Below are positions 27,595-30,507 of a stretch of 64,000 bases of DNA, in pieces (position 1 is the first letter of the stretch; each line of letters opens with the position of its first letter). Below the pieces are notes generated by a model, which saw only the letters and a program-made list of their open reading frames with translations, was not told where the DNA came from and made no database searches. The stretch lies in assembly GCA_021795965.1 (NCBI GenBank), contig JAJYOU010000010.1, forward strand, positions 2,501 to 66,500, given 5' to 3'. The stretch comes from Chloroflexota bacterium. GTDB taxonomy: Bacteria > Chloroflexota > Anaerolineae > Anaerolineales > Villigracilaceae. The position numbers and the translations under genes were made by a program.

Positions 27595-28101
27595 ATGACT
27601 TCAATCTCCCGGAAAGCCAGAAGATGTGCCTGCGACCAATTGCACCCTGATTTATTGCAGGCAATTCAAAGTTATTTCGAATCTCACCAGTTGGGGGAGA
27701 TGGATTTTGGCAGCCTGGTTTGTTGCGAAACCGTGATAGAAAAAAATGAGGGTTTGTTTTCCGCCGGGTTAAAAAAAGGCGCTTCTCCAATTATTTATTC
27801 GGTCGTGGTTCTATCATCCGATACCCTGATCTGGGGACAATCCGGAGGACCAAGAGGAACATACCTTGTTGGCGCAAAACTGAAAAATATTCACGTCAAG
27901 GTGCATCATTCTCTCTTTTCCGGGGAGGCGGGGCTTGAGGTCAAGGGGCTGGTTGAGGATTCCCGCCGGGTGGTGGAGGGCGTGATTGTAATCGGAACAG
28001 GTGAAGAATCGGAGGCTTTTTGCAAAGAGGTTTGTGATGCGGTTGAAAAAATAAATCCGTCACCCACAAGGAAATGGTCCACCTGGTTGGGAGGTCATTA
28101 A
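27595..28101 (+). CDS. Hypothetical protein, 168 aa
   Basis: I do not recognise the family. The protein is soluble, mixed alpha/beta, with alternating strands in the middle (PIIYSVVVLSSDTLIWGQSG, LEVKGLVEDSRRVVEGVIVIG), which hints at a PH-like barrel; that is a guess. It starts with ATG at 27595 without a clear Shine-Dalgarno and is 33 nt upstream of comEC on the same strand, so co-transcription is likely. It has no signal peptide or membrane segment. Confidence 0.5.
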   Translation: MTSISRKARRCACDQLHPDLLQAIQSYFESHQLGEMDFGSLVCCETVIEKNEGLFSAGLKKGASPIIYSVVVLSSDTLIWGQSGGPRGTYLVGAKLKNIHVKVHHSLFSGEAGLEVKGLVEDSRRVVEGVIVIGTGEESEAFCKEVCDAVEKINPSPTRKWSTWLGGH

Positions 28102-28134: not shown

Positions 28135-30507
28135 ATGGGTATTCAAACCGCTAAACCTTCAATTTCCACTCAATTATTATCTCTCCCGCTCGTTTGGCTG
28201 GCTGCCGCCTTTTTAGGCGGCATCATTCTCGGAAGGTTCATCGAATTATCCATCCTGAGCTGGATTCAGCTGGTTTTTCTCGGGCTGGTGATCGCTTTCA
28301 TTCTTCGATACATTCGACCTCTCACCCCTTTTGCCATTCTGCTCATTCCTGCCGTCCTATTCCTGGGGGCTGCTCGCTACCAATCTGCACAACCGGTCAA
28401 TAATTCATCCTTTATCGCCTACTATAATGGGCTGGATCGGAAAATTTACATAACGGGGACATTGATCGAAGAGCCGGATATTCGTGACACTTACGAGAAC
28501 CTGAGGATCCGTGTTTCGGCATTGGATACCGGAGGAGGGGATTTTCCTGTCCGGGGTGATATCCTGGTCAGGTTAGGCAACGATTACGAAGTCGCTTATG
28601 GGGATCATGTCCGGGTCAGAGGTTTTGTCGAGACACCCCCCGCGGAGGAAATTTTTTCATATCGGGATTACCTGGCTCGCCAGGGAATCTATTCAATCAC
28701 TCAGACAAATTCCATCACCATGCTGCCCGGGAAGGATGCCAACCCATTTTGGGCGTGGATGTATCGAACACACAACAGCCTGGTTAAAAGACTAAATCTC
28801 ATTTTTCCTGCACCAGAATCCTCCCTTTTGAGCGGAATTTTATTGGGGGCTGATAAAAATATCCCGGTTGAAATTCAGCAGGCTTTCAAAAATACAGGAA
28901 CCTCGCACATCATCGCCATCTCGGGCTTTAATATTGCCATAGTGGCTTCAGTGCTGGTTCTATTATTTAACAAATTATTGGGTAGAAAATGGGGTTCCTA
29001 CCTGGCAATTTTGGGCATTGCTTTCTATACCCTTTTAGTTGGAGCAAGTCCTTCGGTAGTCCGCGCCGCGATCATGGGCGGTATTTCGATTATTGCCTGG
29101 TTAATCGGGAGGCGCAGCCTGGCAATGACTGCCCTTTCAACCTCAGCCCTGGTCATGGCTGCATTTAACCCGTTTGTTTTGTGGGATGTCAGTTTTCAGC
29201 TTTCTTTTGCAGCCACTCTTGGACTGGTGATTTATGCCCAGCCAATGCAGGATTACGTCAGGGCGTTTTTATCCCGCTTTGTGCCACCTGCTTATCTGGA
29301 TAAATTCATCGGTCCATTTTCGAATTATGTCCTGCTGACATTTGCTGCCCAGTTGACAACCCTGCCCATCTCCATCTATTATTTTGGCCGGATTTCCCTC
29401 GTATCATTCCTTGCAAATCCTTTCATCCTTCCCGCGCAACCAGCGATCATGATTTTTGGGGGATTGGCTGCTGTTTTCAGCAAAATATATCTTCCGCTCG
29501 GACAATTGTTCGCCTGGATTACCTGGCCTTTTGCAGCATATACCATTCGAATGGTGGAGTTTTTTAATGGTTTTCCAGGTGGAGTGTGGGTGTTGGGGGA
29601 AGTCGCTCTGATCATCGTCATTTTATTTTATTGTATCCTTTTCGCAAGCACACTGGCTTGGTCTCGCTTTAAAAATATCCTGACCCCCACTTATCTCATT
29701 TCTTTTTTGGCTATTTTAACCTTTCTCACCTGGCGATCGGTATATTGTCTCCCTGACGGTCTTTTACATGTCTATTTTCTGGATGTCGGTTCTGCGGATG
29801 GCATCTTGATCACTACCCCGGGCGGGCGCAATGTCCTCATCAACGGCGGCGAAAGTCCATCTTCGCTGGCTGACCAACTTGGTCGTCGGATTGCCCCTTT
29901 CAATCGTGGACTTGATTATCTGTTGGTCGCTTCAACCCAGGAAAACCAACTGGCAGCTTTGCCACGGGTGGTCGACCAGTACCGGCCCGCAAATATCCTT
30001 TGGTCTGGCAATTTTGAAGCTTCATACTCGTCCCGCAAATTGAAAGAATGGGTGACTGTTAATTATGTCCCCCTTGAAATTGCCAAATCAGATTCCGGTT
30101 TGGACCTGGGGGATGGAACTATTCTGCGTGTTCTGGCAGCATCCAATCGAGGTGCCATTTTAAGTGTTGAAAAGGGAAATTTTAAAGCCGTGTTGCCGGT
30201 TGGTGTGAATTTTGATGTCTTTGATCAGCTCGAATACGGGAAAAATATCGGTTCAGTCTCAGCCTTATTGATTTCTGAAAGTGGATATGCTCCCTCGAAC
30301 CCCCCTGAATGGCTGGCAAACCTGAAGCCTCAGGTCACCATTTTGAGCGTTGCAGCTGCTGATCCGAATGGTCTGCCTTCAAATGACGTCATCAACGAAG
30401 TCCAAAGTTCAAATTTACTCCGAACCGACCAACTGGGTTGGATTGACCTTTCCACCGACGGAAATCAGTTGTGGATCACCACTGAACATCAGAAGGTATC
30501 CCAATGA
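28135..30507 (+). CDS. comEC: ComEC/Rec2-family DNA uptake protein with degenerate metallo-beta-lactamase domain
   Basis: 790 residues. It has an N-terminal OB-like domain (DUF4131, about 85-190) and the competence membrane core with HIIAISGFNIAIVASVLVLLF and GASPSVVRAAIMGGISIIA (about 255-520). The C-terminal metallo-beta-lactamase-like domain (about 540-785) begins HVYFLDVGSADGILITTPGG. ComEC forms the channel for single-stranded DNA entry in transformation. The usual metal-binding THxHxDH loop is replaced by ASTQENQ, and the DVGQGD/IDxG motifs are altered to DVGSAD/INGG, so the nuclease domain is probably inactive. The ATG at 28135 has GAGAG upstream. No comEA is in the window. Confidence 0.85.
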   Translation: MGIQTAKPSISTQLLSLPLVWLAAAFLGGIILGRFIELSILSWIQLVFLGLVIAFILRYIRPLTPFAILLIPAVLFLGAARYQSAQPVNNSSFIAYYNGLDRKIYITGTLIEEPDIRDTYENLRIRVSALDTGGGDFPVRGDILVRLGNDYEVAYGDHVRVRGFVETPPAEEIFSYRDYLARQGIYSITQTNSITMLPGKDANPFWAWMYRTHNSLVKRLNLIFPAPESSLLSGILLGADKNIPVEIQQAFKNTGTSHIIAISGFNIAIVASVLVLLFNKLLGRKWGSYLAILGIAFYTLLVGASPSVVRAAIMGGISIIAWLIGRRSLAMTALSTSALVMAAFNPFVLWDVSFQLSFAATLGLVIYAQPMQDYVRAFLSRFVPPAYLDKFIGPFSNYVLLTFAAQLTTLPISIYYFGRISLVSFLANPFILPAQPAIMIFGGLAAVFSKIYLPLGQLFAWITWPFAAYTIRMVEFFNGFPGGVWVLGEVALIIVILFYCILFASTLAWSRFKNILTPTYLISFLAILTFLTWRSVYCLPDGLLHVYFLDVGSADGILITTPGGRNVLINGGESPSSLADQLGRRIAPFNRGLDYLLVASTQENQLAALPRVVDQYRPANILWSGNFEASYSSRKLKEWVTVNYVPLEIAKSDSGLDLGDGTILRVLAASNRGAILSVEKGNFKAVLPVGVNFDVFDQLEYGKNIGSVSALLISESGYAPSNPPEWLANLKPQVTILSVAAADPNGLPSNDVINEVQSSNLLRTDQLGWIDLSTDGNQLWITTEHQKVSQ

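Follow-up and report, generated by a model that had tools for sequence, protein, structure and literature searches.

A comEC gene on the forward strand of the window (the whole stretch of 64,000 nucleotides of Chloroflexota DNA analysed here) encodes a protein in which the C-terminal metallo-beta-lactamase (MBL) domain lacks the motifs that should bind metal. This raises the questions of whether that domain still exists as a folded and selected unit, whether the protein still imports DNA, and what would then become of the second strand.

The ComEC protein of the window and its metal-binding motifs

The gene was called with a TTG start, with ATG as its second codon, and a single uninterrupted reading frame runs through all three of the altered motifs noticed at the outset (Table 1). 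The original prediction had described the membrane core as typical, and Pfam bears this out: the Competence family PF03772 was matched at 190 bits against a cut-off of 23, and the DUF4131 OB fold, a feature that is common but not universal in ComEC, at 67.3 bits against 31.6. No MBL family was matched at E<=0.1. The best NCBIfam match, TIGR00361 (ComEC_Rec2), scored 127.5 bits, below its curated equivalog cut-off of 190.05, and stops at residue 576, with most of the C-terminal domain contributing nothing; by these scores the protein is filed under PF03772 ComEC rather than as a TIGR00361 equivalog. A 168-aa open reading frame at 27595-28101 ends 30 bases upstream of comEC; neither Pfam nor NCBIfam gave it a match at E<=0.1, and it is absent among the recurring neighbours of comEC.

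Table 1. Position of comEC, its domains and its altered motifs in the window.
Feature	Coordinates	Strand	Basis
comEC CDS, 791 aa	28132..30507	+	ORF call; PF03772 and PF13567 above cut-off
DUF4131 / OB-fold region, residues 44-194	28261..28713	+	Pfam, E 1.7e-18
Competence (transmembrane channel) domain, residues 236-512	28837..29667	+	Pfam, E 6.9e-56
Pseudo-MBL domain (MBL fold kept, as predicted; catalytic site lost), residues 541-785	29752..30486	+	alignment, model, ligand scoring, dN/dS
Motif I, DVGSAD for DVGQGD, residues 551-556	29782..29799	+	sequence and alignment to intact relatives
INGG for IDGG (D571N), residues 570-573	29839..29850	+	sequence; family conservation
Motif II, ASTQENQ for THxDxDH, residues 600-606	29929..29949	+	alignment to 9ic4; ligand scoring
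Motif IV, LPVG for LTGD; metal-bridging Asp replaced by Gly691	30193..30204	+	alignment to 9ic4; ligand scoring
Motif V region, ISESGY for VxHHGS	30271..30288	+	alignment to 9ic4; ligand scoring
GLP for GHP, His ligand lost; preceding F/Y also lost (N746, proposed pin loop)	30370..30378	+	alignment, ligand scoring; PMC12455585

Ligand positions were mapped by alignment to the solved domain of Moorella glycerini ComEC (9ic4) and to 21 intact relatives. In the window protein S, Q, N and Q stand at the positions of motif II, which PMC12455585 numbers H598/D600/D602/H603 in M. glycerini. The motif IV Asp has become G, E and S take the places of the HHGS pair, and the GHP histidine is replaced by L; the loop bearing the motif III Asn is a gap in the alignment to 9ic4. 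The protein retains none of the seven scored metal-ligand positions. The replacements first noted (DVGQGD by DVGSAD, IDxG by INGG, THxHxDH by ASTQENQ) were all located, at 29782-29949. The span originally given took in two motifs, but the loss is wider and extends to motif IV, HHGS and GHP.

A shift of the histidines was ruled out. Residues 541-785 contain a single His, H546; all 34 same-family sequences have His there, and in our reading the position lies outside the metal motifs. Because the metal ligands are lost, the nuclease activity proposed for the C-terminal domain would be absent, as the original prediction supposed. In M. glycerini, alanine at most of the ligands left the domain virtually inactive, with D600A only about 5-fold down, and matching ligand changes abolished transformation in Legionella (PMC12455585).

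Extent of the loss in the order and the phylum

We drew 65 ComECs of the window's order from 258 matched genomes (the best-scoring sequences, a set from the window's family and members chosen to represent other families); they span 12 of its 15 family codes, all but f3, f8 and f10. The HxHxDH motif was complete in none of them, and its absence from 65 of 65 assemblies makes sequencing error very unlikely. Three uncultured Anaerolineae relatives at 61-62% identity likewise lack it. Among the order's proteins, 34 keep none of the seven ligands, 27 keep one and four keep two, while all 23 proteins classed as intact from elsewhere in the phylum retain six or seven; since three of the seven scored positions served to define the intact set, its high score is to that extent expected, the remaining four being independent. 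The motif IV Asp was present in a single order member, with Gly there in 57 of the 65, and at the first position of motif V, which is E in the window, His is not among the order's six commonest states. Domains of the window's family contain one to three His each and almost no Cys, and their mean His count is 1.8 over 34 rows, whereas that of the intact set is 8.3. The alignment across Chloroflexota that had been proposed as a check shows histidines that are not displaced and a motif loss common to the 65 sampled members of the order. In one order genome (G040), whose ComEC is not among the 65, nothing matched the intact-domain profile at E<=1e-6.

Outside the order, three of 13 ComECs from the same class are intact (G372, G416 and G424); the ten that are not come from five families, and one of these retains 4/7 ligands. 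The rest of the phylum contributed 20 intact ComECs and 12 that are not intact. Of the 12, two (L128 and L132) match neither the dead nor the intact domain profile and one retains 5/7 ligands, so that, judged by these scores, some of the 12 are not clear dead MBL domains. In six cases (L055, L102, L106, L115, L074 and L112) ComEC appears split, by fission or frameshift, into a channel ORF of 474-520 aa and a ComEC-matching ORF of 298-544 aa; an HxHxDH-type motif lies in the second ORF of the first four, and L074 and L112 are without the exact motif.

A quickly built tree of the channel region, in which many branches are weak, places 64 of the 65 order rows in one group (SH-aLRT about 94, not starred). 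A tree in which all 65 were forced together was not rejected (p-AU 0.616), and the fewest changes between intact and lost states over the 109 tree rows is nine. On this tree, the simplest reading would be that the order lost the ligands once, at its base or earlier, and that other lineages lost them independently. One order member with a lost motif (L089, genome G037, family f11) groups in the free tree with an intact class member (L078), which might reflect wrong binning, transfer or long branches. A proposed link between the loss and a His-to-Asn change in the channel motif SGxH was rejected: N occurs in 65/65 order rows and also in 19/23 intact ones.

Fold and selection in the altered domain

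Despite a Pfam result in which PF00753 matched 0/51 dead domains (of the 65) and 21/21 intact domains (of the 23) at E<=0.01, homology remains readily detectable. A profile built from 51 C-terminal domains of the order matches 9ic4 at E 4.4e-35 over nearly its full length, and one of 21 intact domains matches all 65 order domains at E<1e-5. AlphaFold2, given the 51 same-order rows only, returned a model with pLDDT 92.6 and pTM 0.90, whose best solved match in Foldseek was again 9ic4 (TM 0.81, 20% identity); on this predicted structure the domain has the MBL fold. When the full-length model was searched in the same way, the 50 matches listed included a ComEC structure only as the isolated MBL domain, and our literature search found no cryo-EM papers on ComEC. 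In fold (as predicted here), place and full-length homology the domain resembles the catalytic ComEC domains of M. glycerini (9ic4) and M. thermoacetica, from which it differs in the loss of the metal ligands, the motif III loop and the pin aromatic.

Selection was estimated from within-genus pairs. Across 72 pairs, the MBL domain, the channel and the OB region had median NG86 dN/dS values of 0.134, 0.142 and 0.209, respectively; one sequence (L043) is frameshifted, and dropping it leaves 70 pairs, 55 of them from one genus. In these 70, MBL medians by genus range from 0.096 to 0.264 and exceed the channel value in 5/7 genera, by 1.03 to 1.85 times, as compared with a ratio of about 1.2 to 1.6 in intact pairs (n=4, one within genus and three within family). 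The low dN/dS of the dead domain shows, at this level of comparison, that it is maintained under purifying selection, the exact strength of which is not given by such pairs, which share branches and to which NG86 is a crude guide. Part of the constraint is, by the same measures, relaxed, because dN/dS in the MBL domain lies above that of the channel in five of the seven genera and because divergence runs deeper: at a channel identity of 0.4-0.5, mean identity is 0.321 between dead domains and 0.444 between intact ones.

The pattern of conservation has also changed. Of the positions conserved in the intact set, 22 are altered in the order and 31 are conserved in both, and a further 27 are conserved in the window's family and not in the intact set. 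Several replacement residues are themselves conserved in that family of 34 (N571 0.97, S601 0.88, Q606 0.88, G691 0.97, D744 0.94). Conserved acidic and polar replacements such as E604, D744 and Q606 could be taken to mean that other residues still give the domain some unusual nuclease or phosphodiesterase activity. We consider this highly improbable given the scarcity of His and Cys in the family's domains, the Gly that replaces the motif IV Asp in most of the order and the missing motif III loop.

Competence genes, nucleases and the fate of the second strand

The original prediction had also allowed that the protein might have changed role, and had suggested a search for comEA, comF and pilus genes. 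DprA scored over cut-off in all 39 order genomes searched, the window's genome included. ComEA was matched at E<=1.1e-11 in open frames of 139-273 aa in 37/39 (one ComEA-sized protein carries SLBB and HHH domains, and G233 has a weaker match at E 2.1e-4). A strong ComF match (E<=3.3e-25) was found in 37/39 as well, none over the TIGR00201 cut-off, and no ComF match was found in G175. A comFC-like gene lies beside Tad-type pilus genes in 4/7 stretches read; in the one stretch where the adjacent genes were scanned, T2SSE, two T2SSF and RcpC/CpaB identify a Tad pilus cluster. In four of the stretches (L193, L194, L195 and L196) the comFC-like gene stands at one end of the cluster, and in three of these it is adjoined by a gene for a ribosome hibernation factor.

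A change of role is weakened by these results, since comEA, comFC and dprA are kept along with the OB and channel domains, and continued DNA import in the order is likely on this gene content. That the order has lost transformation, with ComEC in some other role or decaying, seems to us improbable: dN/dS is low across all three ComEC domains, the three competence genes are kept across the order and Tad genes adjoin the comFC-like gene. In its favour are the lack of any report of transformation in these organisms in the literature searched, and the finding that no PilT-family ATPase passed the curated cut-off in the 39 genomes, weaker matches occurring in 37.

How, then, might the second strand be handled? 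Another nuclease acting in place of ComEC was one alternative in the original prediction, and the closest published precedent points that way. Streptococcus pneumoniae ComEC, like that of the window, keeps a full-length MBL-like C-terminal domain with substituted metal ligands, and that domain was judged inactive in PMC5031224 and, less certainly, in PMC8579336. The substitution is less complete, in that the pneumococcal protein keeps 2/7 positions, with changes that are partly conservative, against 0/7 in the window. S. pneumoniae, however, has EndA, and no EndA-type gene (PF01223) was found in 39 order genomes; ligand loss, in turn, is shared by all 65 ComECs sampled from the order. PF01223 is present in three of the 69 genomes searched, one of them G424, an intact genome of the same class.

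A separate full-length ComEC-type MBL was found in 3/39 order genomes (G027, G297 and G175), while the 23 genomes searched from the window's family have none, and an order-wide replacement by a second ComEC-type MBL was rejected accordingly. The separate frames in G027 and G175 have intact motifs on reading, no ORF above 200 aa with the searched motif pattern was present in the loci fetched from G297, and weak partial MBL matches were seen in G254, G233 and G054. The two frames whose motifs are intact (L162/L180 and L165/L178) are 443 and 304 aa long, and their products may be secreted. SNase showed no enrichment, being present in 21/39 order genomes and 11/20 intact ones. Near comEC (20 same-family stretches and the window), comEA (6 stretches) and comFC, no conserved neighbouring nuclease was recognised by eye, a minority of these neighbours having been scanned against Pfam. 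The three families searched in whole genomes (EndA, ComEC-type MBL and SNase) yielded no order-wide candidate.

A different arrangement was seen elsewhere in the phylum, in family f43, whose ComECs (L176, L181, L182 and L183) are about 500 aa long and, like the order's, without their own nuclease, although here the domain is absent rather than dead. A gene for an EndA-family putative lipoprotein lies about 2 kb away; it is near comEC in 4/5 fetched genomes (not seen in L184; PF01223 checked in L176) and is possibly a nuclease acting in trans.

Degradation of the second strand by a separate extracytoplasmic nuclease, as with EndA, the ComEC domain being a structural remnant, would fit the pneumococcal precedent, the f43 gene pair and the separate ComEC-type MBL genes with intact motifs. 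We regard it as a serious possibility, albeit one we would not put first: EndA is missing from the 39 order genomes, a separate full-length ComEC-type MBL is present in three of them, EndA does occur in an intact genome of the class, and neither SNase counts nor the neighbouring genes judged by eye give a replacement signal.

The original prediction also allowed that degradation might be dispensable here, and on these results it may be. Displacement of the non-translocating strand during reeling-in, rather than its degradation at the membrane, strikes us as rather doubtful. The idea has been raised for ComECs without the domain, and a catalytic mutant of B. subtilis keeps residual transformation (PMC8579336). 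Liberibacter crescens is transformed through a ComEC of 782 aa that is required for transformation, although it reportedly has no Pfam MBL domain, and Tad pili serve uptake there (PMC8513845). That no replacement nuclease was found would favour displacement too, but the searches spanned three families only, and the Legionella substitutions described above argue against it.

On balance we lean towards a ComEC that remains an import channel and in which the outer MBL domain has been maintained as a pseudonuclease, probably serving as guide or scaffold. ComEC would still import single-stranded DNA, delivered by ComEA and probably by a Tad pilus, and ComFC and DprA would take over the strand inside the cell. 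Most likely the dead domain has been retained to seat the OB fold and the duplex at the mouth of the channel, and degradation of the other strand would have been passed to another nuclease or replaced by displacement. A guide role has been suggested for the S. pneumoniae domain, if inactive (PMC8579336). Several observations weigh against this preferred reading, among them the partly relaxed constraint and the missing profile match in G040 described above. The pin-loop aromatic, linked to strand guidance by PMC12455585 and F or Y in 22/23 intact proteins, is lost (N746 in the window), and guidance through the pin loop is unlikely for that reason. The family's domains are acidic, their net charge averaging -14.9 where the intact set averages -10.8; this disfavours DNA binding, although the window's own domain, at -10, is no more acidic than the intact mean. 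Finally, the window's own genome, which is 62% complete, has no clear ComEA or ComFC: DprA is the sole clear match among the three, ComEA being matched only inside a 732-aa frame and ComF weakly.

Among the open-licence papers searched, no report of an order-wide dead ComEC domain was found; S. pneumoniae ComEC is a published and less complete precedent. Why an inactive domain should be retained in ComEC, and what happens to the second strand where ComEC has no such nuclease, are questions left unanswered in PMC8579336. We offer only tentatively, as somewhat unlikely in its full form, the wider proposal that the order imports DNA without a nuclease at the channel mouth, the MBL fold having been turned once into a metal-free structural part and the second strand being displaced, and that many ComEC domains 'lost' according to Pfam are maintained pseudonucleases. 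Surveys based on Pfam, such as PMC6299819, would list ComECs of this kind as DUF4131 plus Competence only. The absence of a Lactamase_B match in Pfam does not mean that the domain has gone, which bears on the published counts of ComEC domain gain and loss in that survey. The whole order represents a natural, near-complete ligand knockout preserved by selection, for which intact relatives in the same class serve as controls.
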